Assembly (NCBI RefSeq): GCF_003751785.1
Contig: NZ_RKIE01000002.1
Location: forward strand, 310,001 to 374,000
Length of the DNA: 64,000 bases
From: Frigoribacterium sp. PhB160
Lineage (GTDB): Bacteria > Actinomycetota > Actinomycetes > Actinomycetales > Microbacteriaceae
Direction: 5' to 3'
Positions 18,781 through 36,010 of this stretch are shown here, piece after piece. The position numbers and the translations under genes are program-made. The notes beneath the pieces are model-generated. The model did not search any database, was not told the DNA's origin, and saw only the letters and a program-made list of their open reading frames with translations. The first letter of the stretch is position 1. Every line of letters starts with the position of its first letter.

Positions 18781-21632
18781 CCCGAGCCCGTCGGCGGGGT
18801 CGGGCCGGCGTCGCGGGCCAGCCGCCAGAGCCGGTCGCGCGACATCGGCAGCTCGTGCGGCCGCACGCCCAGGGCGTCGCGGATCGCGTTCGCGAGGGCG
18901 GGCGCCACGGGGTTGTACGGCGCCTCGCTCATCGACTTGGCGCCGAGCGGCCCGAGCTCGTCGTGCGTCGACGCGAAGAGCACCTCGGTGCGCGGCACGT
19001 CCGAGAACTTCGGCACGCGGTAGTTGCGGAACGCCGAGGTGAGCACGCGTCCCTCGCCGTCGAGCACGACCTCCTCGTAGAGCGCCGTCCCGATCGCCTG
19101 GGCCGTGCCGCCCTCGACCTGCCCGCGCAGCTGCTCGGGGTTGAGCACGGTGCCGGCGTCGGCGGCCTGCACGGAGCGCAGCATGCGCACCTCGCCCGTG
19201 GCGCGGTCGACCGCGACCCGGAACCCGTGCACGTTGAACGCCACCGACCGCGGCGTGCCGTCGTGGCTGCCGTCGGCCCGCAGCGGCCCGTCCGCCAGGA
19301 GGCGGTCCACGCCGACGAGCACCGGTCCGGAGGCGCGGTGCACCACGACCCCGCCGTCGACCACCTCGGGGGCGGCGGCTCCGTCGTGGACGGGTGCCGC
19401 GCCTCCGGCGGCCTCGAGCGCGCGCTCCGCCATCGCAGCACGGAGCTTCAGCGAGGCGGCGAGCAGGGCCTTGCCCGCCACGACGACGCCCGCCGAGCCG
19501 AACGCGCCCGTGTCGTAGCGGGCCACGTCGGTGTCGGACTGGCGGATGCTGACGCGGTCGGGCGTCGTGCCGAGCGCGGAGGCGACGATCTGCGCGTGCA
19601 CGGTCGTCGTGCCGTTGCCGAACTCGGCCGTGCCGACGCCGATGTCGTAGCCGCCGTCGGCGCGCAGCTCGACCGAGGTGTCGGCGAAGTGCCCGCGGGG
19701 CGGCATGGTCGCGATCATCGCGAGGGCCATGCCCGTGCCGACCGACCAGGTGGGCCCGTCGGGCACGACGTCGGCCACCGCGACCGCGGGGTCGTCGCTC
19801 GGACCGGCGAGCGCCTGCTCGACGAGGTCGAGGCACTGGTCGAGGCCGTAGCTGCCGAAGAGCAGGTCGGTCTCCTCGTCGGGGTCGGTGACGACCATCG
19901 CGTCGCCCGGCACGACGACGTTGCGCCGGCGCAGCTCGAAGGGGTCGAGGCCGAGGCGGCGGGCGAGCTCGTCCATGGCCGACTCGACGCCGAAGACGAC
20001 CTGGCCGAGCCCGTAGCCGCGGAACGCCCCCGAGGGCAGGTTGTTCGTGTAGACCGACTCGGCGTCGACGCGCTTGTTCGCGCAGCGGTAGACCGAGGTC
20101 GACTCGTGCACCGAGTGGTACATGACGCCGATGCCGTGGTTGCCGTACGCGCCGGTGTCCATCAGCTGGTCGACGTGCATCGCGGTGAGCACGCCGTCGG
20201 CGCTCGCGCCGAGCCGCACGCGCACCCGCATCGGGTGCCGGGTCGGGGCGACGGTGAACTCGTCCTCGCGCGAGAACTCGAACTGCACGGCACGGCCGGT
20301 GCGGAGCACGGCCAGCGTCACGAGGTCTTCGGTGATGAGCTCCTGCTTGCCGCCGAAGCCGCCGCCGACGCGCTTGGTGAAGACCCGCACGCGGTCCTCC
20401 GGCAGGCCGAAGACGTGGGCGACCTCGTCGCGCACGAGGAAGGGCACCTGGCTCGAGGTGCGCAGCACGAGGCGGCCGTCGTCGTCGAGCCAGCCGCGGG
20501 TCGCGTGCGTCTCGAGCGCGGCGTGGCTGACCCGCTGGGTCTGCCAGGTGCCCTCGACGGTCACGTCCGCCGCCGCCAGGGCGGCCTCGACGTCGCCGGT
20601 CTCGCCGTGCATGGCGGCCACGGTGTTGCGCTCGGGGAAGGCGATGCGCGAGGCCTCGCTGGTCTTCTCGCCGTGCAGCAGGGGCGCGCCCGGCCGGCGG
20701 GCCTCCTCCGGGTCGAAGACGGTGGGCAGCAGCTCGTACTCGACGACGAGCGCGTCGAGCGCGAGCCGCGCCTCGCGCACCGACTCGGCGACGACGGCGG
20801 CCACCCGCTGGCCGCGGAAGCGCAGCACCGGGTCGAGCACGAGGCTGTCGTCGGGGTCGTCCTCCCGGTCTTCGTGGCGACCGGTCGAGAAGAGCGTGGC
20901 GGGCGAGTCGTGGTGCGTCAGCACGGCGTGCACGCCGGGCATCGCCTCGGCCGCCGTCGCGTCGATCGAGACGACCCGGGCGTGGGCGTGCGGGCTGCCG
21001 AGCACGGCCAGGTGCAGCAGCTTCGTCGGGGTGCGGAAGTCGAGCGTGTACTCCTCGGTGCCGGTCGCGACCCGCAGGCCCGCGGGTGCCTTCGCCGACT
21101 GCCCGACGGCCGTCCCCGCGGCCGGCGTGGCCGTGTTCGACACGCCGCAGATCGCGTCCCCGACGGACCGGTACCCGGTGCAGCGGCAGAGGTTGCCCTT
21201 GAGGAGGCGCGGGAGGTCGTCGCGGTCCGCCTCCGTGAACGTCGAGGCCGTCACCACCATCCCGGCGGTGCAGAACCCGCACTGGAAGCCGGCGGCGTCG
21301 ACGAAGGCCTGCTGAACGGGGTGCGGGTGCTCGGGCGTGCCGAGGCCCGCCGCGGTCGTGACCACGCGGCCGTCGAGGCGGTGCGCGGGCCAGATGCAGG
21401 AGTGGACGGGGTCGCCGTCGACCAGCACGGAGCAGGCCCCGCAGTCGCCCGCGTCGCAGCCCTTCTTGACGCCGTGCACGCCGGCCTCGCGCAGCACGGT
21501 GCGGAGCACCTGGCCGGGGGCGACGGGGGCCTCGAGCGCGTGGCCGTCGACCTCGAACGCGACGGTGCGGGCAGGGGTCGCCGAGGAGAGGGCGGCGACG
21601 GACGGAACGGGTGAGGGGTCTCGGGGGGTCAC
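18744..21632 (-). CDS. Xanthine dehydrogenase, fused FeS and molybdopterin subunit
   Basis: Oxidises hypoxanthine/xanthine to urate. The 962 residues begin with the [2Fe-2S] subunit: plant-type cluster Cys59, Cys64, Cys67, Cys79 and second cluster Cys118, Cys121, Cys149, Cys151 (FQCGFC, CRCTGY). A linker at about 165-190 leads into the Mo-binding large subunit, with GGGFGGKQE, GVGTAEFGNG and the C-terminal GAKSMSEAPYNPVAP segment holding the catalytic Glu. Thus small and large subunits are one chain, while the FAD part is separate. GTG 21632 has GAAGGAGG 7 nt upstream and overlaps the FAD-subunit stop by 4 bp. Confidence 0.93.
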   Translation of the reverse strand: MTPRDPSPVPSVAALSSATPARTVAFEVDGHALEAPVAPGQVLRTVLREAGVHGVKKGCDAGDCGACSVLVDGDPVHSCIWPAHRLDGRVVTTAAGLGTPEHPHPVQQAFVDAAGFQCGFCTAGMVVTASTFTEADRDDLPRLLKGNLCRCTGYRSVGDAICGVSNTATPAAGTAVGQSAKAPAGLRVATGTEEYTLDFRTPTKLLHLAVLGSPHAHARVVSIDATAAEAMPGVHAVLTHHDSPATLFSTGRHEDREDDPDDSLVLDPVLRFRGQRVAAVVAESVREARLALDALVVEYELLPTVFDPEEARRPGAPLLHGEKTSEASRIAFPERNTVAAMHGETGDVEAALAAADVTVEGTWQTQRVSHAALETHATRGWLDDDGRLVLRTSSQVPFLVRDEVAHVFGLPEDRVRVFTKRVGGGFGGKQELITEDLVTLAVLRTGRAVQFEFSREDEFTVAPTRHPMRVRVRLGASADGVLTAMHVDQLMDTGAYGNHGIGVMYHSVHESTSVYRCANKRVDAESVYTNNLPSGAFRGYGLGQVVFGVESAMDELARRLGLDPFELRRRNVVVPGDAMVVTDPDEETDLLFGSYGLDQCLDLVEQALAGPSDDPAVAVADVVPDGPTWSVGTGMALAMIATMPPRGHFADTSVELRADGGYDIGVGTAEFGNGTTTVHAQIVASALGTTPDRVSIRQSDTDVARYDTGAFGSAGVVVAGKALLAASLKLRAAMAERALEAAGGAAPVHDGAAAPEVVDGGVVVHRASGPVLVGVDRLLADGPLRADGSHDGTPRSVAFNVHGFRVAVDRATGEVRMLRSVQAADAGTVLNPEQLRGQVEGGTAQAIGTALYEEVVLDGEGRVLTSAFRNYRVPKFSDVPRTEVLFASTHDELGPLGAKSMSEAPYNPVAPALANAIRDALGVRPHELPMSRDRLWRLARDAGPTPPTGSGQPIDSGIGDTA

Positions 21633-22612
21633 GCCGCGCCTCCTTCGGGGTCGGGGGCAGGTGCAGGAGCAGGCGATGCGGCGGCGGCGCCGGGGCCGGG
21701 GCCGGGGGCGACCGGGGCGGGCACGGCGGTGCGGGCGGCGGCGTCGGCCGTCGCGCTGCCGAGCGGGCCCGGCCGGTGGACGAAGGGCGCCGCCGGCGGG
21801 GGCTGCTGCGGCAGGAGGGCCTCGGCGCGGAGCTCCTCCGCGAAGAGGGCGCTGACGTGCCGCCGCCAGTCGGGGGCGCCGTGCGGGTCGTCGTACCAGG
21901 TGCCGACGCGGGCGACGGCGCCGGCGAGGACGGCCGCTCCGGGCACCTCGTCGAAGCGGAGCTGCTCGGGACGCGTCGTGCCGGCCGTGATCGTCACGAC
22001 GAACTCGCCGTCGGGGGACAGGCGGCTCGTCACGAGGGCGCCCGAGCGGCCCAGCGGGCTCAGGGCGACGCGACGGAACCCCGCCCGCGAGCGCAGCGAG
22101 GCGGTCGGCACCTCGAACGAGCGCAGCACCTCGCCGGTCGTCAGCGTGTTCGTGCGGACCCCGGTCACGAGGCGCGCGACGGGCTCGCGCCGCTCGCCGC
22201 CGTCGGGCGTCCAGACGACGGCGGTGGCGTCGAGCCCGGCGAGCAGCGAGGTCAGGGCCCCCGCGGGCAGGCTCGTGGCGACGTTGCCGCCGACGGTCGC
22301 GACGTTCCACACCTTGAACGAGGCCAGCAGCGAGTTCGCGCACTGGGCGACGAGCGGGTGCGCGGCCCAGTCGTCGCGGGCCGGCAGCCGGGTCAGCTCG
22401 GCGATCGTGCAGGTCGCCGCGACGGTGACGACGTCGTCGCCGACCTCGAGGGGCCTCCAGCCGAGCGTGGTCAGGTCGACGAGGCCGGTCAGCCCGGGCT
22501 GCGGCTCGGAGAAGAGCCAGGTGCCGCCGCCGAGCGGCAGCTCGCCCGGGGCGAAGCGGAGCTCGGCCCGGGTCGACGGGGTGCGGACCTCGCGCACGGT
22601 GATCAGGTCCAC
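21629..22612 (-). CDS. Xanthine dehydrogenase FAD-binding subunit
   Basis: A 327-residue FAD subunit of the CO/xanthine dehydrogenase family: FAD loops at LGGGTWLF (about 27-34) and ATVGGNVATSLPAGA (about 100-114), then the CODH flavoprotein C-terminal domain. Residues 270-327 are an Ala/Pro/Gly-rich tail absent from typical members. GTG 22612 is preceded by GGGAGGAG. First gene of the xdh operon, divergent from uraD across 84 bp. Confidence 0.9.
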   Translation of the reverse strand: MDLITVREVRTPSTRAELRFAPGELPLGGGTWLFSEPQPGLTGLVDLTTLGWRPLEVGDDVVTVAATCTIAELTRLPARDDWAAHPLVAQCANSLLASFKVWNVATVGGNVATSLPAGALTSLLAGLDATAVVWTPDGGERREPVARLVTGVRTNTLTTGEVLRSFEVPTASLRSRAGFRRVALSPLGRSGALVTSRLSPDGEFVVTITAGTTRPEQLRFDEVPGAAVLAGAVARVGTWYDDPHGAPDWRRHVSALFAEELRAEALLPQQPPPAAPFVHRPGPLGSATADAAARTAVPAPVAPGPGPGAAAASPAPAPAPDPEGGAA

Positions 22613-22683
22613 GCGAGCTCCTCCCGCCCGGCCCGGGGCGACCCGGCCTGCGTCGCGGGCCCGGCGGCCCGGCCGTCCGTCAG

Positions 22684-22689
22684 TACAGT
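22684..22689 (+). promoter_or_regulatory. -10 element TACAGT, leaderless start
   Basis: TACAGT ends 7 nt before ATG 22697 (uraD). Confidence 0.5.
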
Positions 22690-22696
22690 GACCTCC

Positions 22697-23239
22697 ATGA
22701 TCGATCTCCCCGAGAGCGAGCTGCGCGAGCGCCTCGCGACAGCCCTCTCCGTCTCCCGCTGGGTCGACGACGTCGCCTCCGGCGCGCCGTACCAGGACGT
22801 GGAGGCGCTGGTCGCCTCCGCCGAGCGCGCCGGCGACCCGCTCACCGACGCCGAGATCGACGAGGCCATGGCGCACCACCCGCGCATCGGCGAGTCGCCC
22901 GTCGGCGAGGGCGCCGCGCAGGAGTTCAGCCGCCGCGAGCAGGAGGCGTCGCAGCAGACCGACGACGCCCGGCTCGCCCGGGCGCTCGCCGAGGGCAACG
23001 CCACGTACGAGGAGCGCTTCGACCGGGTGTTCCTCATCCGCGCCGCGGGGCGCAGCCGCGAGGAGATCGTCGAGGAGCTGCAGCGCCGCCTGACGCTCGA
23101 CGACGAGTCGGAGAAGCGCATCGTCGGTGAGCAGCTCGTCGAGATCGCGGCCCTGCGCCTGCGGCAGATGTTCGGCGAGTCGAGCGCGGAGACCGGACGC
23201 GGGGCCGAGACGGCCTCGCCGCGGGAGCCGGCCGCGTGA
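22697..23239 (+). CDS. uraD: OHCU decarboxylase
   Basis: Converts 2-oxo-4-hydroxy-4-carboxy-5-ureidoimidazoline to (S)-allantoin, the third step of urate breakdown. The 180-residue protein has the family's HPRIGE motif (about residues 56-61, catalytic His) and EEIVEELQRRL near the C-terminus. Its stop overlaps the uraH start by 4 bp, so steps two and three are coupled. Confidence 0.94.
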   Translation: MIDLPESELRERLATALSVSRWVDDVASGAPYQDVEALVASAERAGDPLTDAEIDEAMAHHPRIGESPVGEGAAQEFSRREQEASQQTDDARLARALAEGNATYEERFDRVFLIRAAGRSREEIVEELQRRLTLDDESEKRIVGEQLVEIAALRLRQMFGESSAETGRGAETASPREPAA

Positions 23240-23562
23240 GCCACGTCACGACGCACGTGCTCGACGCGGCGCTCGGCCGCCCCGCGGCCGGCGTCGCGGT
23301 CGACCTCGCCGACGCGACGGGCGCGGTGCTCGCCAGCGGCGTGACGAACGACGACGGACGCGTGCCCGAGCTCGGGCCCGACGCGCTGCCCGTCGGCGTC
23401 TACCGGCTCGTGTTCCACACCGCAGCGTACTTCGAGGCCGCGGGCCGGGAGGCCTTCTGGCCGCGCGTCGTGCTCGACTTCGACCTCGTCGACGAGCAGG
23501 CGCACTACCACGTGCCGCTGCTGCTCAGCCCGTTCGCCTACTCGACGTACCGGGGCAGCTGA
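23236..23562 (+). CDS. uraH: 5-Hydroxyisourate hydrolase (transthyretin-like)
   Basis: Hydrolyses 5-hydroxyisourate, the urate oxidase product, to OHCU. 108 residues, the normal size. Conserved features: HVLDAALGRPAAG at the start (active-site His), a central Arg, the HYHVPLLLSPFAYSTYRGS end with the diagnostic C-terminal YRGS. GTG 23236 overlaps the uraD stop. Confidence 0.96.
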   Translation: MSHVTTHVLDAALGRPAAGVAVDLADATGAVLASGVTNDDGRVPELGPDALPVGVYRLVFHTAAYFEAAGREAFWPRVVLDFDLVDEQAHYHVPLLLSPFAYSTYRGS

Positions 23563-23569
23563 GGCCCGC

Positions 23570-23587
23570 GGCGCCTCCCGGGGCGCC
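23570..23587. terminator. Small hairpin between convergent uraH and guanine deaminase
   Basis: GGCGCC (23570-23575) and GGCGCC (23582-23587) pair around TCCCGG, just past the uraH stop. Weak on its own. Confidence 0.3.
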
Positions 23588-23648
23588 GACGCGTCCGCCC
23601 GGGCGCCGGTCGGCCCGCCGCCGCGCCCGCTGCTCGCCACCACGGCGC

Positions 23649-24179
23649 TCAGTAGTCGGTGCGGTGGTCGTGCGCGAGCCACGCGTCGAACGGCGCCGAG
23701 GCGTCGCCGGGGCGCACGGCGTCGACCGGGAGCTCCCACGTGGAGCGGTCGCGGCCGAACAGCTCGTAGAACTCGAGGTCGTCGAAGCCGCCCCGCGCGG
23801 CGTCGTGCCGGTCGGCGGCGTAGACCACGCGGTCGACCCGGGCCCAGAGCGCGGCCGCGAGGCAGAGCGGGCAGGGCTCGCACGAGGTGTAGAGCGTGGC
23901 GCCGGCGAGGGAGAAGTCGCCCACGACCTGGCAGGCCGCCCTGATGGCGACGACCTCGGCGTGCGCCGTGGGGTCGAGGTTCGCCGTGACGCGGTTCTGG
24001 CCCTCCGCCACGAGCTCGCCGTCGCGCACGATCAGCGCCCCGAAGGGGCCGCCGCCGGCGGCGACGTTGGCGACGGCCAGCTCGATGGTGCGGGCGAGCC
24101 ACCGGGCGTCGACCGCGGCGTCGACCACGGGGGCGGAGCCGGCGGTGTCGGGGGCGGTGGGGGTCTCTGCGGCGCTCAT
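23649..24179 (-). CDS. guaD: Guanine deaminase (cytidine-deaminase-fold)
   Basis: Deaminates guanine to xanthine, feeding the xanthine dehydrogenase next door. The 176-residue protein carries the zinc site HAE (His73, catalytic Glu75) and CEPCPLC (Cys100, Cys103), and the C-terminal extension ending in Tyr that caps the active site in Bacillus-type guanine deaminases. RBS GAAGGAGG lies 4 nt before ATG 24179. Co-directional with the urate oxidase 52 bp upstream. Confidence 0.86.
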   Translation of the reverse strand: MSAAETPTAPDTAGSAPVVDAAVDARWLARTIELAVANVAAGGGPFGALIVRDGELVAEGQNRVTANLDPTAHAEVVAIRAACQVVGDFSLAGATLYTSCEPCPLCLAAALWARVDRVVYAADRHDAARGGFDDLEFYELFGRDRSTWELPVDAVRPGDASAPFDAWLAHDHRTDY

Positions 24180-24231
24180 CGCGCCTCCTTCGGGTCGGGG
24201 TCGTCGGGGTGTCGGGGGTGTGCGGGCCGCG

Positions 24232-25155
24232 TCAGGCGAGGCCGGCCGAGGCGCGCCACGCGTCGCCCGCGGGCAGCGCGTCGTCGCGGTGCAGGGTCGC
24301 CTCGATCAGCCCGTACGGGCGGTCGGCGGCCCAGAAGACCTCGTTGTCGTTCTCCAGCCCGAAGCGTTCGAGATCGTAGGCGAAGTGGTGCTTGTTCGGC
24401 GCCTTGAGGCGTACCTCGGCGATGTCGGGGTGGGCCTCCATCGCCGCACGCCCCATGTGCCAGAGGGTCTGCTGGAGGGCGAGCGACTGCAGGGTCGCGA
24501 ACTCGCGCACCATGATGGCCGTCACGGAGGCGTGGAGGGCGTCCCAGTCGAAGGAGGCGTCGGCCGCGGCGTCGCCCGAGACCCGCCACTTGGCGTCGAG
24601 GGCGGTCGCCATGACGCGGTCGTGCGTCTCGGGCAGCGTCGTGAACTCGTCGGTGAGGAACCCCGCGAACTCCGACCCCGTCGACTTCAGCAGCACCAGC
24701 TCTTTCACGCCGGCGACGACGTGCTCGCGGACCCCGCCCGGGGCCGCCGCGTCGACCGTGACGGCCGCCGTGCGCACCTCGGGGCCGGTGCGGAGCCAGG
24801 TGTGGTCGTGCTCGGCGCCGTCGACGACGGCCCGCGCCCAGGCGTGCTCCTCGATCTCGATGCGGGCGGAGACGACGGGGTCGACGTCGTCGACGAAGTG
24901 GCGCGCGAGGTCGAGGCCGAAGCCCTCGACCGACTGCACCCCGTGCGACTTCGCGAAGGCGAACGCCGTGTTCTTCTGGGTGTCGGTCGGCAGCACGGCC
25001 GACTGGTCGCCCTCGAGGTAGGCGGCCTCGAAGGGACCGCGCAGCGCGGTCGTGACCGTGAGGTCGCGGATCTCGTGTCGGGGCCCGTCGCGCACCACGC
25101 GAACGAGGTGGGACTCCGCCTTGCCGTACTGGTTGTCGCCGAGGATGATCGCCAT
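24232..25155 (-). CDS. uox: Urate oxidase (uricase)
   Basis: Cofactor-free oxidation of urate to 5-hydroxyisourate with release of H2O2. 307 residues, two tandem T-fold halves. Seen: LGDNQYGKAESHLVR with catalytic-dyad Lys12, the PTDTQKNTAFAFAK block (56-69) supplying the Thr, and VLLKSTGSEFAGF in the second half. A near-consensus -10 (CAAGAT) lies 6 nt before ATG 25155, and two 24-bp direct repeats sit just upstream. Operon with guanine deaminase. Confidence 0.95.
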   Translation of the reverse strand: MAIILGDNQYGKAESHLVRVVRDGPRHEIRDLTVTTALRGPFEAAYLEGDQSAVLPTDTQKNTAFAFAKSHGVQSVEGFGLDLARHFVDDVDPVVSARIEIEEHAWARAVVDGAEHDHTWLRTGPEVRTAAVTVDAAAPGGVREHVVAGVKELVLLKSTGSEFAGFLTDEFTTLPETHDRVMATALDAKWRVSGDAAADASFDWDALHASVTAIMVREFATLQSLALQQTLWHMGRAAMEAHPDIAEVRLKAPNKHHFAYDLERFGLENDNEVFWAADRPYGLIEATLHRDDALPAGDAWRASAGLA

Positions 25156-25176
25156 GCCGCGATCTTGACAGGCTCG

Positions 25177-25230
25177 TGTGAACGGCTTGTTTCAGGATCG
25201 GCCGTTTGTGAACGGGCTGTTTCAGGACCG
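25177..25230. promoter_or_regulatory. Tandem 24-bp operator-like repeats in the uricase divergent promoter
   Basis: Two copies (25177-25200 and 25207-25230) differ at three positions and are spaced 30 bp centre to centre, about three helical turns. Each contains TGTGAACGG followed by TGTTTCAGG or close variants, a degenerate inverted TGAA/TTCA pair. The right place for a regulator controlling uox-guaD leftward and the triple-fusion gene rightward. Confidence 0.65.
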
Positions 25231-25255
25231 CCCTGTGGGGGGATCGTCGTCTCGC

Positions 25256-25261
25256 TAGGGT
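25256..25261 (+). promoter_or_regulatory. -10 element TAGGGT, leaderless start
   Basis: TAGGGT is 6 nt before ATG 25268. Confidence 0.45.
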
Positions 25262-25267
25262 CGCTGC

Positions 25268-28228
25268 ATGCCGACGACAGACGTGCCCCCCGTGCCCTCC
25301 GACGCGTGGCCGCTGCAGCCGCACGAGGGCCCGATCGCCTCCGCGACGTACCTGCCCGCCAGCCCCGCGACGACGCTGTGGGGCCGCCTGCCCTGCGCCG
25401 CCGACGAGCCGGTGCTCACCGTCGACCCCGGCACGCTCGTCACGATCGACACCGTCAGCCACGAGGGCCTGCTCGGCGACCAGGGCAGCGACCCGGTGCG
25501 CTTCTTCGGGGCGCACGGCGTGCCTCCGGAGGGGGTGCTCCGCGACGCCGTGGCGATCGCCGCCGACGCGGGCAGCCGCCACGGCCGCGACCCCGCAGCC
25601 GACGGGCCGCACGTCGTCACGGGCCCGATCGCCGTCCGCGGGGCCGAGCCCGGCGACCTGCTGACCCTGACCCTCGTCGAGGCCCTGCCGCGCGTGCCCT
25701 ACGGCGTCGTGTCGAACCGCCACGACCGCGGCGCGCTCGCCGGCGAGTACCCCCTGCAGGAGGGGTCGGTCAGCGTCTTCGCCGCGGTCGATCACGACGA
25801 CGCCGGCGCCCACGGCGAGCCCGGCGACCTCGTGGGGACCATGCCGCTCGTGGCCGGCGGCGAGCACCTCGTGCGGTTCCCGCTGCGGCCGTTCCTCGGC
25901 GTGATGGGCGTCGCCGCGGCCGGCGACGAGCGACCGCACTCGGTGCCGCCGGGCGCCTTCGGAGGCAACGTCGACATCGCCCTGCTCGTCGCCGGCACGA
26001 GCCTCCACCTGCCCGTGCAGGTGCCCGGCGCGCTCGCGTACGTCGGCGACCCGCACTTCGCGCAGGGCGACGGCGAGGTCGCCCTCACCGCGATGGAGGC
26101 GTCGCTGCGGGTGACCGTGCGCCTCGACCTCGTCCGCCGGGCCGACGCCCTGGCCCGCTTCGGCGAGCTCGCCGGCCCGCTCGCCGAGACCGTCGAGCAC
26201 CTCGTGCCGACGGGCCTCGACGTCGACCTCGACGAGGCCGTGCGGGCCTGCGTCCGGGCCGCCATCAGCCTGCTGAGGGCCCGGTGGGGGATGGACGAGC
26301 ACCTGGCCTACGCCTACCTCAGCGCCGCCACCGACTTCGACATCTCGCAGGTCGTCGACCTCGTCAAGGGCGTCCACGCGCGGGTGCGCAAGGCCGACTT
26401 CGCGGGGGTGCCGCTCGTCGGCGGAGAGCGCGCCGTGACCGACCTCGACCGGGTCGGGGCCGCCGCGGCGGATGTCGTCACCGACTCGGCGGCCCCGGCC
26501 GTCTCGGCGGCCCCGGCCGTCCGGCCGCACCGGCCCTCGACGAGGAGGCGCCCCGTGCCTGACGAGACCGCACCCGCCCCGCTCGGCGACGCCCTGCCCC
26601 CGCTCCCGCTGACCTCGCTCGACGGCGGCGACCTGCCCGACGGGCTGCTGGCCGCCGTGGCCGCCTACGAGGAGGCCCTCCGCGTCGACGACGTGCCCGC
26701 CCTCGCCGACGCCTTCGAGCCCGGACCGGCGAGCCTCCGCGTCGACGCCGCCGGGACGCTCGTCGGGCACGACGCGATCACGGCGTTCCGGGCGCGGCGC
26801 GGGGGGACCGCGGGGCGGGCGGTCGAGCAGCTCCACGTGCGGGTGGTCGACCCGGGCACCGCGCTCGTCGTCACGACCAACGCCCCGGCCGGCGGCGGTC
26901 GCGGCGTCGTCACCCAGCTCTGGAGGCGCGGCGCGGCCGGCACCTGGCGCATCGCCACCGCGCACGTGCAGGCCCCGCGCCCCGCGGTCGACACGCGGGT
27001 GTGGCGGGTGGTGGGCGCGCCCCTGGCGGCGGGACGCGCCTCCTCGGGGCCGGTCGGCGCAGGGCCCGACGAGCGGCCGCTGGCGGGACGGACGGTCGCC
27101 GTCAAGGACCTCTTCGCCGTCGCGGGGCACGCCGTCGGCGGGGGCGTGCCGGCCTACCTCGCCGAGCAGCCCGTCGCGGAGCGGTCGGCCCCGGCCGTCA
27201 CCGCGCTGCTCGACGCCGGCGCCGACGTGCTCGGCATCGCGCAGACCGACGAGTTCGCGTTCAGCATCGCCGGGCGGAACGGAGCCTGGGGGACGCCGCC
27301 GAACGGCGCGGTGCCGGGAGCGATCCCCGGCGGGTCGTCGAGCGGGCCGGCCTCGGCCGTCGCGCTCGGCCAGACCGACGTCGGGCTCGGGACCGACACG
27401 GGCGGGTCGATCCGGGTGCCCGCCTCGTACCAGGGGCTGTGGGGGCTCCGGACGACGCACGGGGCCGTCCCGACCGAGGGGCTGCTGCCGCTCGCTCCGT
27501 CGTTCGACACGGTCGGGTGGCTGACGCGCGACGCCGCGACGCTCGGGGCGGCCGTGCGCGCGACGCTCGGTGACGCGAACGCGGGCGCCGACGCAGGCGC
27601 GGCCCCGGCCGGCCCTGGCCTCGCCGCCCGGGGCGTCGTGGTCGACCCGGCCGTCGTCGCGACCGTGTCGGCCGACGTCCGCCGTGCGTTCGCGGAGACC
27701 GTCGACCGCCTCGTCGCCACCGGCCGCCTGCCCCGGCCCTCGTCCGTCGCCGTCGCCGAGGTCGGCGGGGCCGCCGGGCTCGCCGGGCTGCTCGCCCACT
27801 TCCGCATCGTGCAGTCGGCGGAGGCCTGGCGCACCCACGGCGCCTGGATCACCGCCCACCCGGGGGCCCTCGCCCCCGACGTCGCCGCCCGCTTCGCCGC
27901 GGGCGAGGCCGTCACCCCCGACGCCGAGCAGGAGGCGCGGGCCGGCCTGGCCGCCGCCCGCCGCGCCCTCGAGGCGGTGCTGGGCGACCGCGTGCTGCTG
28001 GTGCCCGCGGCGTCGTCGGCCGCGCCCGCGCTCGACGCCGACGCGGCCGAGATCGACCGGGTGCGCGCGGCGACCCTCGGGCTGACCTGCGTCGCCGGGA
28101 TCACCGGGCGGCCCGCGGTGTCGGCGCCGCTGATGCGCGTGGCCGGCGGGCCGGTCGGGCTGTGCCTCGTCGGTCCGCGCGGGTCGGACCTCGAGCTCGT
28201 CGCGCTCGCGGGCGCGCTGGCGGGCTGA
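25268..28228 (+). CDS. Triple-domain fusion: acetamidase/formamidase - DUF3225 (AtzH/HpxZ) - amidase (AtzE/HpxY)
   Basis: One open frame of 986 residues. Residues about 1-425 are an acetamidase/formamidase (FmdA) domain (VTIDTVSHEG, RDPAADGPHVVTGP, GGNVDIA). Residues 430-575 are a SnoaL-like DUF3225 domain as in AtzH and HpxZ (LAAVAAYEEALRVDDVPALA). Residues 590-985 are an amidase-signature hydrolase with Lys613, cis-Ser690 (GGSSSGP) and nucleophile Ser714 (GTDTGGSIRVPA). A GTG at 26555 (residue 430) with GAGGAGG 6 nt before it marks an internal start with no stop codon ahead, so a 557-residue DUF3225-amidase may also be made. DUF3225-amidase pairs occur in Klebsiella hpx purine clusters, which fits the location; the exact substrates (oxamate, carboxybiuret-like, formamide) are not known. 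Confidence 0.85.
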   Translation: MPTTDVPPVPSDAWPLQPHEGPIASATYLPASPATTLWGRLPCAADEPVLTVDPGTLVTIDTVSHEGLLGDQGSDPVRFFGAHGVPPEGVLRDAVAIAADAGSRHGRDPAADGPHVVTGPIAVRGAEPGDLLTLTLVEALPRVPYGVVSNRHDRGALAGEYPLQEGSVSVFAAVDHDDAGAHGEPGDLVGTMPLVAGGEHLVRFPLRPFLGVMGVAAAGDERPHSVPPGAFGGNVDIALLVAGTSLHLPVQVPGALAYVGDPHFAQGDGEVALTAMEASLRVTVRLDLVRRADALARFGELAGPLAETVEHLVPTGLDVDLDEAVRACVRAAISLLRARWGMDEHLAYAYLSAATDFDISQVVDLVKGVHARVRKADFAGVPLVGGERAVTDLDRVGAAAADVVTDSAAPAVSAAPAVRPHRPSTRRRPVPDETAPAPLGDALPPLPLTSLDGGDLPDGLLAAVAAYEEALRVDDVPALADAFEPGPASLRVDAAGTLVGHDAITAFRARRGGTAGRAVEQLHVRVVDPGTALVVTTNAPAGGGRGVVTQLWRRGAAGTWRIATAHVQAPRPAVDTRVWRVVGAPLAAGRASSGPVGAGPDERPLAGRTVAVKDLFAVAGHAVGGGVPAYLAEQPVAERSAPAVTALLDAGADVLGIAQTDEFAFSIAGRNGAWGTPPNGAVPGAIPGGSSSGPASAVALGQTDVGLGTDTGGSIRVPASYQGLWGLRTTHGAVPTEGLLPLAPSFDTVGWLTRDAATLGAAVRATLGDANAGADAGAAPAGPGLAARGVVVDPAVVATVSADVRRAFAETVDRLVATGRLPRPSSVAVAEVGGAAGLAGLLAHFRIVQSAEAWRTHGAWITAHPGALAPDVAARFAAGEAVTPDAEQEARAGLAAARRALEAVLGDRVLLVPAASSAAPALDADAAEIDRVRAATLGLTCVAGITGRPAVSAPLMRVAGGPVGLCLVGPRGSDLELVALAGALAG
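26542..26557 (+). promoter_or_regulatory. Internal ribosome-binding site and GTG start inside the fusion ORF
   Basis: GAGGAGG at 26542-26548, six bases, then GTG 26555, exactly at the junction of the formamidase and DUF3225 domains. Just upstream (about 26486-26521) an 18-base unit (TCGGCGGCCCCGGCCGTC) is repeated in tandem. Confidence 0.65.
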
Positions 28229-28283
28229 CGGCCGGGCTGACCGCGGGGTCGGGGGGCGTGACGACGGGGCGGGTCGGCGCGCC

Positions 28284-28892
28284 TCAGGCGGGCCGGTCGA
28301 CGTCGGCGCCGTCCCAGAGGTCGGAGCAGTCGACGCGATCCGCCCCGTGCGCGTCGAGGTAGGCCCGTGCGCCGGAGTCGCCCGCGAGCTCGGCGGCCAG
28401 CGGCTCCCAGTGCACTCGGCCGACGAGCACGGGGTGGCCCGGACGTCCGCCGAACGCCGCCTGCCGCAGGGACCCCGCGCGGGCCGCGTCGTCGACGTCG
28501 AGCAGCCGCGCGACGGCCGCCGGCGGCAGACCCGGGAGGTCGACCAGCGAGACGAGGGCGCACCGCGCCTCCTCGTCGCCGTCGGGTCGGCGCGGTGCCG
28601 AGAGCGCTCGCAGCCCGGTCCGCAACGACGCCCCGAGCCCCTCGGCCCAGTCGTCGGCGACCACCACCCGGATCCGTGGGTCGTCCGGCACGAGCACCCG
28701 GGCCTCGTCGGCGCGCGCCCCGAGCACGACGACGACCGCGTCGCACCCGCCGGTCAGCAGCGCCGCCGTCGCCCGCGCGACCCACGGCGTGCCGTCGGCG
28801 CCGCGCACGAGCGCCTTCGGCCGCCCGGCCCGCGTGCCCGCGCCGGCGGCGAGGAGCAGGCCGACGGCGCCGCGTCCGCTCGTCGACTCCAT
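28284..28892 (-). CDS. MocA/MobA-like molybdopterin nucleotidyltransferase
   Basis: A 202-residue NTP-transferase with the N-terminal signature LLAAGAGTRAGRPKALV (about residues 12-28) and LVSLVDLPGLPP (metal-binding Asp). It transfers CMP or GMP to molybdopterin; position inside the xanthine dehydrogenase cluster implies it matures the Mo cofactor of that enzyme, most like MocA (cytidylyl). ATG 28892 chosen because upstream sequence is repetitive. Confidence 0.83.
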   Translation of the reverse strand: MESTSGRGAVGLLLAAGAGTRAGRPKALVRGADGTPWVARATAALLTGGCDAVVVVLGARADEARVLVPDDPRIRVVVADDWAEGLGASLRTGLRALSAPRRPDGDEEARCALVSLVDLPGLPPAAVARLLDVDDAARAGSLRQAAFGGRPGHPVLVGRVHWEPLAAELAGDSGARAYLDAHGADRVDCSDLWDGADVDRPA

Positions 28893-28963
28893 CCCGTCAC
28901 GGTAGCCGCAGCCGCAGCCGCAGCGGCAGCGGTAGCGGCCGACGCGGCGATGTCTGCGGGCGC

Positions 28964-29036
28964 GCGTCCGCCGCGGCGTCACGTTCCGTGCCTCGCGTCG
29001 CGTTCTTCCGTGACGCGACGCGCAGGACGTGACGCG
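28964..29036. repeat. Structured direct repeat, copy 1
   Basis: 73 nt beginning GCGTCCGCCGCGGCGTCACG and ending CGCAGGACGTGACGCG. Copy 2 is at 29113-29188. Internal inverted pairs GCGTCACG/CGTGACGC and CGCGTCGCG/CGCGACGCG allow folding. Confidence 0.75.
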
Positions 29037-29065
29037 GTTCGGCGGGATGAGGCCGACGCCCCCGG

Positions 29066-29102
29066 GGAGGCGCGGTGTGCGCGGTCCGCGACCCGCGCCT
29101 CC
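29066..29102. repeat. GGAGGCGCGG hairpin
   Basis: GGAGGCGCGG (29066-29075), 17-nt loop, CCGCGCCTCC (29093-29102). Lies between the two copies of the structured direct repeat; same geometry as 4122-4158. Confidence 0.7.
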
Positions 29103-29112
29103 GCGGGGGGTC

Positions 29113-29188
29113 GCGTCCGCCGCCGCGGCGTCACGGTCCGTGCCCCGCGTCGCGTTCCTCCGCGACGCGACGCGCAGGACGTGACGCG
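29113..29188. repeat. Structured direct repeat, copy 2
   Basis: 76 nt, differing from copy 1 by a 3-nt insertion and about four substitutions; the last 22 bases are identical to copy 1. Confidence 0.75.
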
Positions 29189-29244
29189 ACACGGGAACCC
29201 GAACCCGCCCGGGCGCCCGAAACACGGGTGAAACCCGCGTTGCG

Positions 29245-29250
29245 TACGAT
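29245..29250 (+). promoter_or_regulatory. -10 element TACGAT, leaderless start
   Basis: TACGAT is 6 nt before GTG 29257. Confidence 0.55.
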
Positions 29251-29256
29251 GACCCC

Positions 29257-30591
29257 GTGAAACGAGCCTTCCAGCCGATCGACCCTCCCGCCCGCCTCCT
29301 CATGGGCCCCGGCCCGATCAACGCCGACCCCCGGGTGCTCCGGGCGATGTCGGCGCAGCTGGTCGGCCAGTACGACCCCTGGATGACCGCCGCGATGGAC
29401 GAGACCCAGGCCCTCTACCGCGAGGTGTTCCGCACCGGCAACGAGCAGACGCTGCTCGTCGACGGCACGAGCCGCGCGGGCATCGAGGCCGCGCTCGTGT
29501 CGATGATCACGCCGGGCGACCGGGTGCTCGTGCCCGTGTTCGGCCGCTTCGGGCACCTGCTGGTCGAGATCGCCGAGCGGTGCGGTGCCGAGGTGCACAC
29601 CATCGAGGTGCCGTGGGGCCAGGTCTTCACGCCGGAGGCGATCGAGCGCGCGATCGAGCAGGTGCGACCCGCCCTGCTCGCCGTCGTGCACGGCGACACG
29701 TCGACGACCGTCGCCCAGCCGCTCGAGGGGCTCGGCGAGGTCTGCGCGAAGCACGGCGTGCTCTTCTACACCGACGTGACGGCGTCCCTCGTCGGCAACG
29801 CCTTCGACGTCGACGCCCTCGGCCTCGACGCCGTGAGCGCCGGCCTGCAGAAGTGCCTGGGCGGCCCCTCGGGCTCCTCGCCCGTGACGTTCTCGCCCCG
29901 CGCGGTCGACGTCATCCGCGCCCGGACCTCGGTCGAGGCCGGCATCCGGAGCGCCGGCGACGAGACGAGCGACCGCCGCATCGCCTCGAACTACCTCGAT
30001 CTCGCGATGATCTTCGACTACTGGGGCCCGCAGCGCCTCAACCACCACACCGAGGCCACGACGATGCTCTACGGTGCCCGCGAGTGCGCCCGCCTCGTCG
30101 TCGAGGAGGGCCTCGACGCCGCCGTCGCCCGCCACGCCCTGCACGGCTCGGCGATGCTCGCGGGGGTGCGCGGCCTCGGCCTCGAGACCTTCGGCGACCT
30201 CGAGCACAAGATGAACAACGTCGTCGCGGTCGTGATCCCCGACGGGGTCGACGGCGACGCCGTGCGCGGCGAGCTGCTCACCGACTTCGGCATCGAGATC
30301 GGCACCTCGTTCGGCCCGCTGCACGGCACGGTCTGGCGCATCGGCACCATGGGCTACAACGCCCGACGCGACACCGTGCTGACGACCCTCTCGGCCCTCG
30401 AGTCGGTGCTGCGCCGGGCAGGCGCGCGCGTCTCGGCCGGCGGCGGCGTCGACGCGGCCTACGACGCGTACGCGACCGCCGACGCGACGGCCGCGACGGC
30501 CGCGACGGCCGTGGCCGGGGCCGACGACCCGGCCGACGACCTCGACGCGGCGACCGCCGGAGGCGCAGCCACCGGGGGAGGCGCGGCGTGA
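29257..30591 (+). CDS. pucG: (S)-Ureidoglycine-glyoxylate aminotransferase (PucG-like)
   Basis: PLP enzyme of fold type I, alanine-glyoxylate aminotransferase family. It transfers the amino group of ureidoglycine (from allantoate) to glyoxylate, giving glycine and oxalurate. Seen: MGPGPINADPRVLRAM (13-31), SGLQK-like Schiff-base segment SAGLQKCLGGPSG with Lys199, and the GTxxG-type phosphate segment. The enzyme core ends near residue 400; residues 400-444 are an Ala/Asp/Thr/Gly tail. It overlaps the allantoate amidohydrolase start by 4 bp. General alanine/serine-glyoxylate transaminase is the alternative, but the operon argues for PucG. Confidence 0.87.
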   Translation: MKRAFQPIDPPARLLMGPGPINADPRVLRAMSAQLVGQYDPWMTAAMDETQALYREVFRTGNEQTLLVDGTSRAGIEAALVSMITPGDRVLVPVFGRFGHLLVEIAERCGAEVHTIEVPWGQVFTPEAIERAIEQVRPALLAVVHGDTSTTVAQPLEGLGEVCAKHGVLFYTDVTASLVGNAFDVDALGLDAVSAGLQKCLGGPSGSSPVTFSPRAVDVIRARTSVEAGIRSAGDETSDRRIASNYLDLAMIFDYWGPQRLNHHTEATTMLYGARECARLVVEEGLDAAVARHALHGSAMLAGVRGLGLETFGDLEHKMNNVVAVVIPDGVDGDAVRGELLTDFGIEIGTSFGPLHGTVWRIGTMGYNARRDTVLTTLSALESVLRRAGARVSAGGGVDAAYDAYATADATAATAATAVAGADDPADDLDAATAGGAATGGGAA

Positions 30592-31898
30592 GCCCCGCGG
30601 TCCCCGCCGCCGCCCAGCCCGCCCCGGCCGGGCGCCCCGCGCCTGACCCGCACCCCGTCCCGCACCCCTCGGACGCCCGCACGATCCTCGACCGCTGCGA
30701 CGAGCTCGCCGCCGTGTCGAGCACCCACCACGGCATCACCCGCGTCTACCTCAGCCCGGAGCACGCCCGGGTCAACGCCCTCGCGGCCGGCTGGATGACG
30801 GCCGCCGGCATGACGACGTGGCAGGACGCCGCCGGCAACCAGCGCGGCCGCTACGAGGCCGCCGAGCCCGGGGCCCCCGCGATCCTGCTCGGCTCGCACC
30901 TCGACACGGTGCCCGACGCCGGCCGGTACGACGGCATCCTCGGGGTGCTGCTCGCGATCGCGGTGGTCGAGCGCCTGCACCGGGCCGGCACGCGCCTCCC
31001 CGTCGCCGTCGAGGTCGCCGCGTTCGGCGACGAGGAGGGCACGCGGTTCGGCACCGCGCTGCTCGGGTCGCGCGCGCTCGCCGGCACGTGGGACGACGCG
31101 TGGTGGCAGCTGGTCGACGAGGCGGGCACGACGCTCCGCGACGCGTTCACCGCGTTCGGCCTCGACCCCGCGGCCGTGGGCGACGCCGCGCCTCCCCGGG
31201 GCTCGGTCGTCGGCTACCTCGAGGCGCACATCGAGCAAGGGCCCTACCTGCTCGAGGCCGACCGAGCGCTCGCCGTCGTGTCGTCGATCGCCGGCGCGCG
31301 GCGCTTCGAGCTGACGATGACCGGCGTCGCGGGTCACGCCGGGGGAGTGCCGTTCCACCGCCGCCACGACGCCCTCGCCGGCGCGAGCGAGGTCGTGCTC
31401 GCCGTCGAGCGGCTCGCGCGCGACGCCGACTGCGTCGCGACCGTGGGGCGGCTCGAGGCGTTCCCGGGCGGGGTCAACGTGATCCCCGGGCTCGTCGAGT
31501 TCAGCCTCGACCTGCGCGGCGAGCACGACGACCGACGGGACGAGGTCTGGGCGGCTGTCCGCGAGGCCGCGGCCGAGGTCGGCGAGCGGCGCGGGCTCGC
31601 CTTCGCCGCGCACGAGACGCACTCGGCGCCCGCCGTCGTGGCGTCGCCGGCGCTCCGCGACGTGGTGCGGGACGGCATCGCCGCGACGGGGGACACCGAC
31701 CCGATGGTGCTCTTCTCGAAGGCCGGGCACGACGCGATGGCCGTGGCCGAGCTGACCGACTGGGCGATGCTCTTCGTCCGCTGCGGCAACGGCGGCATCA
31801 GCCACCACCCTGACGAGATCGTCACGCTCGCCGACGTCGCCGTGGCCCTCGACGCGTTCGAGGCGTCGGTGCGGGCCCTGGCGGAGCGGTCGCGGTGA
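30588..31898 (+). CDS. allC: Allantoate amidohydrolase (M20 family, PucF/AllC-like)
   Basis: Hydrolyses allantoate to ureidoglycine, CO2 and ammonia. 436 residues: an extra 30-residue Pro/Ala-rich N-terminus, then an M20 metallopeptidase fold with GSHLDTVPDAGRYDG, DEEGTRFG, EAHIEQGP and the late ligand His in GGISHHPDE. GTG 30588 follows GGGGGAGG by 6 nt; that ribosome-binding site is itself the GGAGGCGCGG motif. Middle gene of pucG-allC-rpiR, all joined by 4-bp overlaps. Ureidoglycolate/carbamoyl-amino-acid hydrolases are close relatives. Confidence 0.88.
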   Translation: MSPAVPAAAQPAPAGRPAPDPHPVPHPSDARTILDRCDELAAVSSTHHGITRVYLSPEHARVNALAAGWMTAAGMTTWQDAAGNQRGRYEAAEPGAPAILLGSHLDTVPDAGRYDGILGVLLAIAVVERLHRAGTRLPVAVEVAAFGDEEGTRFGTALLGSRALAGTWDDAWWQLVDEAGTTLRDAFTAFGLDPAAVGDAAPPRGSVVGYLEAHIEQGPYLLEADRALAVVSSIAGARRFELTMTGVAGHAGGVPFHRRHDALAGASEVVLAVERLARDADCVATVGRLEAFPGGVNVIPGLVEFSLDLRGEHDDRRDEVWAAVREAAAEVGERRGLAFAAHETHSAPAVVASPALRDVVRDGIAATGDTDPMVLFSKAGHDAMAVAELTDWAMLFVRCGNGGISHHPDEIVTLADVAVALDAFEASVRALAERSR

Positions 31899-32815: not shown

Positions 32816-32852
32816 CGCGCCGGGTCTGGCAGCGCGGCCGGCGCGGCCCGGC

Positions 32853-33488: not shown

Positions 33489-33565
33489 ATCCGTCCCGTC
33501 TCGTGCCCCCGACCGGTCGCCGCGGCTCGCTCTCGTGCCCCCCGAAAGGGGGCGTCCCGACTTGC

Positions 33566-33592
33566 ATACTCGCTGGTATCGCAGCGCTACCA
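33566..33592. promoter_or_regulatory. Overlapping palindromes, probable TetR operator
   Basis: ATAC-TCGCTG-GTAT (33566-33579) and TGGTATCGCAGCGCTACCA (33574-33592, 8 of 9 pairs match) overlap by six bases, the layout of a two-dimer TetR site. Confidence 0.55.
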
Positions 33593-33600
33593 TCAAGGGA

Positions 33601-33623
33601 CCAGGCGAACCCGAAACGCCTGG
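33601..33623. terminator. Hairpin CCAGGCG-N9-CGCCTGG
   Basis: Perfect 7-bp stem, about 200 bp beyond the allantoinase stop; may stop leftward transcription entering the TetR gene. Confidence 0.35.
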
Positions 33624-33819: not shown

Positions 33820-35232
33820 CTACCGCCGCGTGATCAACCGAGCCGGAGGCGCCGCCGCGTCCACGACGACCCCGGCGACCCACGTCGCCCCGACCCGCCC
33901 GACCAGCTCGGCCCCGTCGAACGCCGACACCGGGTTGCGGTGGGCGAGCAGGGCCGCGTCGACGACGAACGGCTCGTCGGGGGCGAAGGCGACCAGGTCG
34001 GCGGCGGCGCCGACCTCGATGCGCCCCTTCGCGCCTCCGGACCGCGGGGCGCCCAGGCCGACGAGGTCGGCGGTGCCGCGGCTCATCCAGCCGAGCACCG
34101 TCTCGAGCGCGATGCCGCGCGCACGGGCGCCCGACCAGACGGCGCGGAAGCTCAGCTCGAGCCCGGCGATGCCGCCCCAGGCCTCGTCGAACGAGCCGTC
34201 GCCCGCGAACTTCAGCTCGGCCGTCGACGGGGAGTGGTCGGAGGCGACGACGTCGATCGTGCCGTCGACGAGCGCCGCCCAGAGCAGCTCGCGGTTGGCC
34301 GCGTCGCGGATCGGCGGGCAGCACTTGTACTGCGTGGCCCCGTCGGGGATGCCCGCCTGGTCGAAGGTCAGGTAGTGCGGGCAGGTCTCGACCGTGAGTC
34401 GCAGGCCCTCGGCCTTCGCGGCGCGGATCGTCGCCAGCGCCGACGCCGACGAGAGGTGCAGCACGTGCGCCCGGCCGCCGGTCGCGCGGAGGGCCTCGAC
34501 CACGTGCTCGATCGCGGTCTGCTCGACCGCCTCGGGGCGGGAGGCGACGAAGTCGTCGTACACCGCGCCTCCGGCCCCCTCGGGCAGGGCGGCGGCGGCC
34601 TCGTCGAGCCGGTCGGGGTCCTCGGCGTGGACGATGAGCAGCCCGTCGAAGGCGGCGATCTCGCGCATCGCGGCGTGCAGCTCGTCGGTGCCGAGGTGGG
34701 GGAACTCGTCGACGCCCGAGGGGGACAGGAACGCCTTGAAGCCGAAGACCCCGGCCTCGTGCAGCGCCCGCAGGTCGCCGGTGCCGAGGTTCGAGGGCAC
34801 GGCGCCGCCCCAGAAGCCGACGTCGACGACCGACTGGGGGCCCGCCGCGGCCCGCTTGAGTTCGAGGGCCTCGACCGTCGTGGTCGGCGGGATGCTGTTG
34901 AGCGGCATGTCGACGATCGTCGTCACGCCCCCGGCGGCGGCGGCGCGGGTGGCCGACGCGAAGCCCTCCCACTCGGTGCGGCCGGGCTCGTTGACGTGCA
35001 CGTGCGTGTCGACGACGCCGGGCATGAGCACCTCGTCGTCGGGCAGGGTCACGTCGCGGCCGCCGTCGTGCACGGGCAGCACGGCGTCGACCGCCTCGAT
35101 CGCGACGACGAGCCCGCCGCGCACGGCGACCGCCGCGGGCTGCCACGCACCGTCGACGAGCACGCGCGAGGCCCGCACGACGAGGTCGGAGGAGGCGCGG
35201 CCCGCGTCGCCGGCGACGCCCGCGTCAGCCAC
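33820..35232 (-). CDS. allB: Allantoinase
   Basis: Opens the allantoin ring to allantoate. A 470-residue cyclic amidohydrolase with VDTHVHVNEPGRTEWEG (His77, His79), the carboxylated-Lys site VFGFKAFLSPSG (Lys166), a metal-ligand His in IVHAEDPD and HVLHLSS, and the catalytic Asp in VVASDHSP. GTG 35232 overlaps the end of the DUF1275 gene by 8 bp. It is the last gene of the leftward operon that begins at 43413. Confidence 0.93.
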   Translation of the reverse strand: MADAGVAGDAGRASSDLVVRASRVLVDGAWQPAAVAVRGGLVVAIEAVDAVLPVHDGGRDVTLPDDEVLMPGVVDTHVHVNEPGRTEWEGFASATRAAAAGGVTTIVDMPLNSIPPTTTVEALELKRAAAGPQSVVDVGFWGGAVPSNLGTGDLRALHEAGVFGFKAFLSPSGVDEFPHLGTDELHAAMREIAAFDGLLIVHAEDPDRLDEAAAALPEGAGGAVYDDFVASRPEAVEQTAIEHVVEALRATGGRAHVLHLSSASALATIRAAKAEGLRLTVETCPHYLTFDQAGIPDGATQYKCCPPIRDAANRELLWAALVDGTIDVVASDHSPSTAELKFAGDGSFDEAWGGIAGLELSFRAVWSGARARGIALETVLGWMSRGTADLVGLGAPRSGGAKGRIEVGAAADLVAFAPDEPFVVDAALLAHRNPVSAFDGAELVGRVGATWVAGVVVDAAAPPARLITRR

Positions 35233-36010
35233 GACCCGAGCCCGCCGTCGCGTCCGAGCCCGCCGCTGCGCTCGAGCCCGCCGTCGCACCGGCGTCGGCG
35301 CCGACGGACGCGGCCTCCTCGGCCTCCGCCGCCTTCACCTTCTCGCGCATGAGGTGCCCGGCGAGGGCGACGAGCAGCGTGAGGCCGCCCGAGACGCCCA
35401 TGCCGACGCCGATGTGCACCTGCAGCAGCAGGGCGCCGACGCCGGCCCCGACGAGGATCATGACGACCGCGAGCACGCGCCGCGGGAAGTTCTTGCCGTC
35501 GCCGCCCGCGAGCTTCGACTCGCTGGCGAGGCCGACGATGGTCGACGTCACCACGACCGTGGTGACGTCGGCGACGGCGATCTTGCGGGCCGCGGCGGCC
35601 TGCACGCCCATCGCCGCGCCCAGCAGGCCGGTGATCGTGTAGGCCCACGGCGTGCCCTCCTCGGGCACGACGAGGAAGCAGGTGAGGCCGAGCCCGAGCA
35701 GCACGGTGCCCGTGATCGAGAAGGCGATCGTGCTGCGGCCCGACCAGCCCTTCCGCGACCCGCGCAGCAGGCGGCCGCCGGCGGCCGCGCCGACGAGGAA
35801 CGCGACCAGCGCGATGACCGGCCCGAGGATCGGCAGGCCGTCGGCCTGCGCGATCGCCATGCCGAGGATGACGACGTTGCCGGTCATGTTCGCGGTGAAC
35901 ACCCGGTCGAGGCCGAGGTAGCCGACGGCGTCGATGATGCCGGTGGTGAACGTCAGCGCCAGCATCATGATCAGGTGCATGCGCGCCTGGTTCTCGCGGA
36001 GTCTCTTCAC
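35225..36010 (-). CDS. DUF1275 (YoaK-like) membrane protein
   Basis: A 261-residue protein with about six TM helices; the DUF1275 signatures GIIDAVGYLGL and FTANMTGNVVILG are clear. Residues 225-261 form an Ala/Gly/Ser tail. GTG 36010 has AGGAAGGA 4 nt upstream. Function unknown; being followed by overlapping allB suggests a role in uptake or export of a purine-pathway compound, but this is inference. Confidence 0.85.
   Translation of the reverse strand: MKRLRENQARMHLIMMLALTFTTGIIDAVGYLGLDRVFTANMTGNVVILGMAIAQADGLPILGPVIALVAFLVGAAAGGRLLRGSRKGWSGRSTIAFSITGTVLLGLGLTCFLVVPEEGTPWAYTITGLLGAAMGVQAAAARKIAVADVTTVVVTSTIVGLASESKLAGGDGKNFPRRVLAVVMILVGAGVGALLLQVHIGVGMGVSGGLTLLVALAGHLMREKVKAAEAEEAASVGADAGATAGSSAAAGSDATAGSGRG

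Follow-up and report, generated by a model that had tools for sequence, protein, structure and literature searches.

We analyzed a window of 64,000 nucleotides from Frigoribacterium sp. PhB160 (Microbacteriaceae), taken from contig NZ_RKIE01000002.1 (positions 310,001 to 374,000) of a 3.34 Mb assembly in 4 contigs; coordinates below count from the first base of this window. On its forward strand, a single reading frame runs from an ATG at 25268 to a TGA at 28228 and encodes 986 amino acids with no stop inside. It joins an FmdA/AmdA-type amidohydrolase to an AtzH-like domain and an amidase domain, and it stands among genes for purine breakdown, one of which encodes (S)-ureidoglycine-glyoxylate aminotransferase (UGXT). 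An initial annotation, made from the letters alone, had described a three-way fusion protein with an internal translation start. The uninterrupted frame was confirmed, and its parts are as follows.

25268..26554, + strand: FmdA/AmdA-type amidohydrolase part (Pfam FmdA_AmdA, PF03069; 94.7 bits in the whole frame, 98.7 bits alone, cut-off 27)
26481..26535, + strand: 18-nucleotide tandem repeat in the FmdA tail, 3.1 copies (Tandem Repeats Finder: period 18, 89% matches, 2% indels)
26542..26548, + strand: Shine-Dalgarno sequence GAGGAGG of the AtzH-amidase gene; GAGGAGG-N6-GTG is identical in F. endophyticum (locus L061)
26555..26562, + strand: GTGCCTGA, the AtzH-amidase start overlapping the presumed ancestral FmdA stop TGA (26560-26562), which the FmdA frame no longer reads; all 11 congeners that have the pair show the same overlap mode
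26555..28228, + strand: AtzH-like (NTF2-fold) and amidase-signature domains, 557 amino acids, a separate gene in relatives

Along the frame, the domains follow in the order FmdA_AmdA, AtzH-like and Amidase, all above their Pfam cut-offs of 27 bits, as the initial annotation had read them. The AtzH-like domain (DUF3225; PF11533) scored 51.1 bits in the whole frame and 52.5 bits in the 557-amino-acid part, and the Amidase domain (PF01425) scored 168.5 and 170.7 bits, respectively. Lys613, Ser690 and Ser714, rightly described as intact, correspond to K184, S261 and S285 of the 557-amino-acid part; we take them to be the Lys-cisSer-Ser triad, and they are invariant in 25 aligned sequences (window included). 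The more specific names given to the two enzymes are valid at the superfamily level only, because the curated cut-offs are far off. The amidase, which had been called AtzE/HpxY-type, scored 129-130 bits against TIGR02715 (cut-off 425.75) and 134-135 bits against NF006631 (cut-off 461), and its closest NCBIfam match was PRK08310 at 364-366 bits, short of the cut-off of 391. The part called a formamidase belongs to the FmdA_AmdA family and reached 59-63 bits against the formamidase equivalog NF045496 (cut-off 500).

Start signals and reading frames at the junction

At the junction, GAGGAGG-N6-GTG (26542-26557) places a GTG at 26555-26557 in frame with the 986-amino-acid reading, exactly as had been noticed. 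In F. endophyticum, the closest named relative (82% identity in FmdA, 74% in AtzH-amidase), the AtzH-amidase gene starts at the GTG of GTGCCTGA and FmdA ends in LDREEAARA before its stop; in the window, the frame that leads to the TGA ends in ALDEEAPRA. The pair is present in 12 of 16 genomes of the genus, and in all 11 besides the window the halves lie in different frames, with the GTG overlapping the FmdA stop as GTGNNTGA. Because these congeners have two frames with this overlap, and the window keeps the overlap, the signal taken for an internal start is real but is better read as the ancestral start of the second gene. The initial annotation had itself named separate genes in close relatives as an argument that would refute the fusion, and every one of these 11 genomes has them.

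The two-gene arrangement extends well beyond the genus. Among 84 Microbacteriaceae junctions, 80 were separate and 4 were fused, namely the window and three species of genus g18. These junctions comprise 72 judged by coordinates (71 in different frames, 1 in the same frame), 9 separate and 2 fused judged by fetched DNA, and the window; 9 of the 84 come from extra genus members and 75 from our sample of 299 family genomes. Named loci with both parts (L061-L093) gave 26 separate and 2 fused of 28, partly from the same genomes. A start-like codon overlapped the FmdA stop by 8 or 4 nucleotides in 39 of 40 other separate pairs inspected, and genome G232 has an ordinary FmdA stop beside its AtzH-amidase match. 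The overlapping codons are presumably the starts actually used, and the two genes are probably translationally coupled.

What distinguishes the window is the tail of FmdA, which is longer than that of F. endophyticum, the extra part being the 18-nucleotide repeat ahead of the shared GAGGAGG and GTGCCTGA. Conservation of FmdA stops near 26412, leaving a non-conserved C-terminal tail. Read manually, repeat copies 1 and 2 have 18 nucleotides and copy 3 has 17. Under a codon model for which 187 genes of the window's genome served as the training set, the FmdA frame scored +26.5 and +8.1 bits through copy 2 and then -11.3 bits from copy 3 to the GTG, a segment over which the frame of the old TGA scored +9.0 bits. 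The total was 40.4 bits with one frame change near 26531 versus 19.6 bits without it, and among 72,018 in-frame windows from the training genes, only 42 showed both extremes together. The drop in one frame and the rise in the other indicate that the tail evolved in the frame ending at 26562, and therefore that the joined reading is young or artefactual. The open junction itself is weak evidence for a fusion, because in this GC-rich genome a wrong frame usually stays open: of samples taken within genes, 52% and 92% in the two wrong frames had no stop across 45 codons. We conclude that the fusion in the window is probably either recent or an assembly error.

The ancestral FmdA frame would thus have ended at the TGA of GTGCCTGA (26555-26562), and a net loss of one base in the third repeat copy would carry FmdA past it into the AtzH frame. 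A 986-amino-acid fusion would then be made alongside the ancestral 557-amino-acid product, which would still start from the conserved Shine-Dalgarno sequence and GTG. A lost stop near the junction had been foreseen as an objection to the fusion, and a net one-base change in the repeat is what we find; we lean towards a real loss in the organism over one in the assembly alone. Should a base have been dropped in the GC-rich repeat during sequencing or assembly, the organism would have two ordinary overlapping genes. The change is indeed a single base within a tandem repeat, the ancestral overlap of stop and start is still intact, and none of the 11 congeners with the pair has the halves in one frame. 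On the other hand, a real indel would be tolerated, because the FmdA tail is not conserved and the second gene keeps its own start.

The assembly also looks clean, because a frameshift survey comparing 400 kb each of the window's genome and the F. endophyticum genome showed no other clear frame break in about 190 matched genes (186 and 192 by direction). The survey gave 17 candidates (9 and 8 by direction, with the fmdA/atzH-amidase locus among the 8), and a clear coding pattern on both sides of the break was seen at this locus only, although breaks near gene ends escape the method. One further candidate, the first 63 residues of an F. endophyticum gene, was ambiguous. The remaining candidates were set aside since one segment, mostly the first, showed no in-frame coding GC pattern, as expected of over-extended open reading frames. 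Taken together, we regard an error as the less likely explanation, though one with real weight.

Compact fusions in other lineages

One-frame fusions with short linkers were found in three g18 species (G112, G222 and G173; loci L106-L108) and in Bifidobacterium tibiigranuli and B. subtile (L062, L092), so that a search for further chains with all three domains, as the initial annotation had suggested, was fruitful. In L062 and L106, all three Pfam domains scored above their cut-offs. In the segment from the FmdA motif to the AtzH tyrosine, no ATG, GTG or TTG occurs in L106, L108 or L092; one GTG occurs in L107 and one ATG in L062. The L062 fusion neighbors genes for UGXT, allantoate amidohydrolase, allantoinase, an Asp/Glu/hydantoin racemase and a purine/allantoin-type permease. 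Like these compact fusions, of which those of B. tibiigranuli and g18 lie in an allantoin/UGXT cluster, the window joins the three domains in a single chain with the same order; unlike them, it retains the start signals of the second gene and the old stop. A compact fusion would be expected to lack a strong independent AtzH-amidase start signal, and the window has one in common with F. endophyticum.

To place these fusions, we used a tree built from a selected subset of 45 AtzH-amidase sequences, on which the fused label changes three times. A single origin of all fusions was rejected (approximately unbiased, AU, test, p = 2.9e-5 against one clade), whereas a clade of the g18 and Bifidobacterium fusions was not (AU p = 0.30); a minimum of two origins is therefore supported, but not a minimum of three. 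In a wider search with the Bifidobacterium fusion as query (E 1e-40), matches were obtained in 55 of 198 genomes of the order and 32 of 197 of the class. No further one-frame fusion occurred among 32 adjacent pairs from these two samples, a set that leaves out the window, the family genomes, single halves and distant halves. Among titles and opening lines of abstracts in the open-licence PMC literature, we found no description of an FmdA-AtzH-amidase fusion or of an oxalurate enzyme of this kind.

The compact fusions in g18 and Bifidobacterium suggest that the parts work together, and repeated fusion suggests that FmdA and AtzH-amidase act as a complex. They also indicate that the fused form can work, which speaks for an established and selected fusion protein in this Frigoribacterium species. 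However, the codon usage just before the GTG belongs to the other frame, so the fused reading appears young; the tree sets the window fusion apart from the others; and the start signals of the second gene are intact. We therefore consider a selected fusion in this species improbable. The three-way fusion exists in other lineages, but a novel selected one at this locus is not well supported.

The purine-breakdown neighborhood

The genes around the frame agree with the purine context that had been proposed from the sequence. The following neighbors were identified.

22673..23239, + strand: OHCU decarboxylase (UraD), approximate start (TIGR03180, 149.9 bits, cut-off 139.4)
23236..23562, + strand: hydroxyisourate hydrolase (TIGR02962, 122.3 bits, cut-off 87.45)
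24232..25155, - strand: urate oxidase, divergent from FmdA (TIGR03383, 328 bits, cut-off 168)
29257..30591, + strand: UGXT, which would make oxalurate (614 bits to 3nnk, 443 bits to PucG 3isl)
30555..31898, + strand: allantoate amidohydrolase, start inexact (NF006775, 528 bits, cut-off 479)
33820..35289, - strand: allantoinase (TIGR03178, 514 bits, cut-off 358)

Between the divergent urate oxidase and FmdA genes, GTGAACGGNNTGTTTCAG occurs twice (25178-25195 and 25208-25225), 30 nucleotides apart, where chance alone would give a mean of 0.11 such pairs when up to 3 mismatches are allowed. F. endophyticum has a comparable pair near 5768-5815 of its locus L061, and the repeat is a possible operator for the regulator of the cluster. 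No RNA families were found within 20000-36500, and a scan for promoter and terminator consensus sequences across 24900-32000 gave no matches.

Further away, the reverse strand carries at 18744-21701 the iron-sulfur and molybdenum subunits of xanthine dehydrogenase, apparently in one open frame (XdhC-like residues 46-184, XdhA-like residues 199-964). Two reverse-strand amidohydrolases lie at 45194-46546 (nearest to 8-oxoguanine deaminase, 251 bits, below the cut-off of 532) and at 42103-43488 (nearest to cytosine deaminase, 194 bits, below the cut-off of 438). Both adjoin an ABC transporter permease-like gene at 40407 and perhaps belong to another cluster for nucleobase use.

Co-occurrence with UGXT and the proposed oxalurate pathway

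Across the 299 family genomes, searched with the 986-amino-acid sequence at E 1e-40, UGXT at E 1e-60 and allantoinase at E 1e-90, the first query had at least one match in 95 genomes. UGXT was found in 86 genomes, all of them within those 95, and 75 of these 86 were shown to have the two halves adjacent. Allantoinase was found in 97 genomes, and none of the 11 that have it without UGXT matched the pair. In B. subtilis, ureidoglycine-glyoxylate aminotransferase leads to oxalurate (PMC5270733). The reading we favor, and think reasonably likely on comparative grounds, is that the locus holds an overlapping fmdA/atzH-amidase pair of the purine cluster, joined by a one-base loss, which would degrade the oxalurate made by UGXT.

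UGXT nearby would supply oxalurate as the substrate of the pair. The amidase would release the terminal ammonia and leave N-carboxy-oxamate, which the AtzH domain would convert to oxamate and CO2. FmdA would then hydrolyze oxamate to oxalate and ammonia, in the role of HpxW. We infer these substrates and the order of the steps by analogy with known systems. The initial annotation had imagined one polypeptide handling successive amide products of ring breakdown; we keep this idea and, because the pair is linked to UGXT, narrow its substrates to oxalurate, oxamate and oxalate.

Two known systems provide the templates. For Pseudomonas sp. ADP, the proposed reaction of AtzH is the decarboxylation of 1,3-dicarboxyurea, in which Tyr22 and Arg46 would take part (PMC6219798); a comparable decarboxylation is assumed here. 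A profile of our AtzH-like part retrieved the AtzH structure 6bjt (E 7e-18). Like the AtzE/AtzG/AtzH system of cyanuric acid breakdown, the window keeps the two proposed catalytic residues (as Y38 and R62 of the 557-amino-acid part) and four further pocket residues (Arg63, Arg66, Arg73 and Gln108), all six being invariant in the 25 aligned sequences. Unlike that system, its context is purine rather than triazine breakdown, and its amidase scores far below the TIGR02715 cut-off.

The second template is the oxalurate branch of the hpx genes in Klebsiella, with the amidase HpxY, the AtzH-type protein HpxZ and the oxamate hydrolase HpxW; we take the ggt gene of Enterobacteriaceae to be HpxW. Like this branch, the window has a UGXT-type transaminase in the cluster, an allantoate amidohydrolase, an amidase and an AtzH-family protein. 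It differs in having an FmdA-family protein in the place of ggt/HpxW, an amidase outside the AtzE family by score, and AtzH fused to the amidase. The FmdA part likewise shares the Pfam family of formamidase FmdA but falls short of the formamidase equivalog and is tied to UGXT. The pair would work like the Klebsiella branch, two of whose three roles would here be filled by different families. In Enterobacteriaceae, ggt-atzG-atzE-atzH is reported to adjoin a transaminase and an allantoate amidohydrolase (PMC6219798), hpxY is named as oxalurate amidohydrolase (PMC12625717), and oxamate is given as the substrate from which HpxW releases oxalate and ammonium (PMC5270733).

Several observations weigh against this assignment. 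Six UGXT genomes of genus g8 have FmdA and no AtzH-amidase in the stretches fetched; in three others (G049, G054 and G123) the amidase part is present and FmdA missing, and no AtzH was detected in G049 either; and G084 shows neither half in the 8.5 kb fetched around UGXT. Nine genomes with one match have neither UGXT nor allantoinase, and in the samples of the order and the class, several genomes carry just one half or two halves at distant sites. Of the nine AtzH pocket residues named in PMC6219798, with equivalences counted along alignments, only six are retained in the window; Phe94 and Arg96 are not conserved, and the window also lacks Gln106. Moreover, the pair and UGXT co-occur within an inherited cluster and the genomes are not independent, so that co-occurrence test values overstate independence because the genomes are related.

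The pair could instead act on another amide, such as ureidoglycine, formamide, oxamate only, or biuret-like or triazine products. The FmdA and amidase families are broad in substrates, 10 of the 86 UGXT genomes showed at most one half next to UGXT, and the nine genomes with one match lack UGXT. However, the pair tracks the oxalurate-forming UGXT rather than allantoinase by itself (at least one match in 86 of 86 versus 0 of 11), and the genus has no AllG, which leads us to regard another substrate as rather unlikely. The oxamic transcarbamylase AllFGH of E. coli acts on oxalurate (PMC11326118); it has this substrate in common with the proposed pair but consists of other proteins, and AllG was absent from all 16 genus genomes searched, with E. 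coli positive as a control.

The clusters with one half beside UGXT (L228 in G049, L226 in G054, L227 in G123, and L224 and L229 in genus g8) offer natural tests of which half performs which step. In one further genome, UGXT is split into two overlapping matches (G295:C1:654434-655605), either by an error or as a pseudogene.

For genome interpretation, a single slip in a tail repeat can join overlapping genes without the loss of the downstream product, and a joined frame of this kind in a GC-rich genome should not be called a selected fusion.

For purine catabolism, UGXT forms oxalurate from ureidoglycine, and the literature consulted names AllFGH of E. coli and the hpx genes as routes that continue from there. 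We tentatively propose that FmdA, AtzH and amidase together may form a three-step machine that mineralizes oxalurate and would be the missing end of the actinobacterial UGXT branch. It would be encoded by overlapping genes in most lineages examined and fused in at least two, with the window perhaps caught in the act of fusing by a repeat slip while the second gene keeps its own start. Because the pair follows UGXT closely across the family and no curated score assigns it a substrate, the end of this pathway in a large bacterial group becomes a matter for a direct enzyme test.

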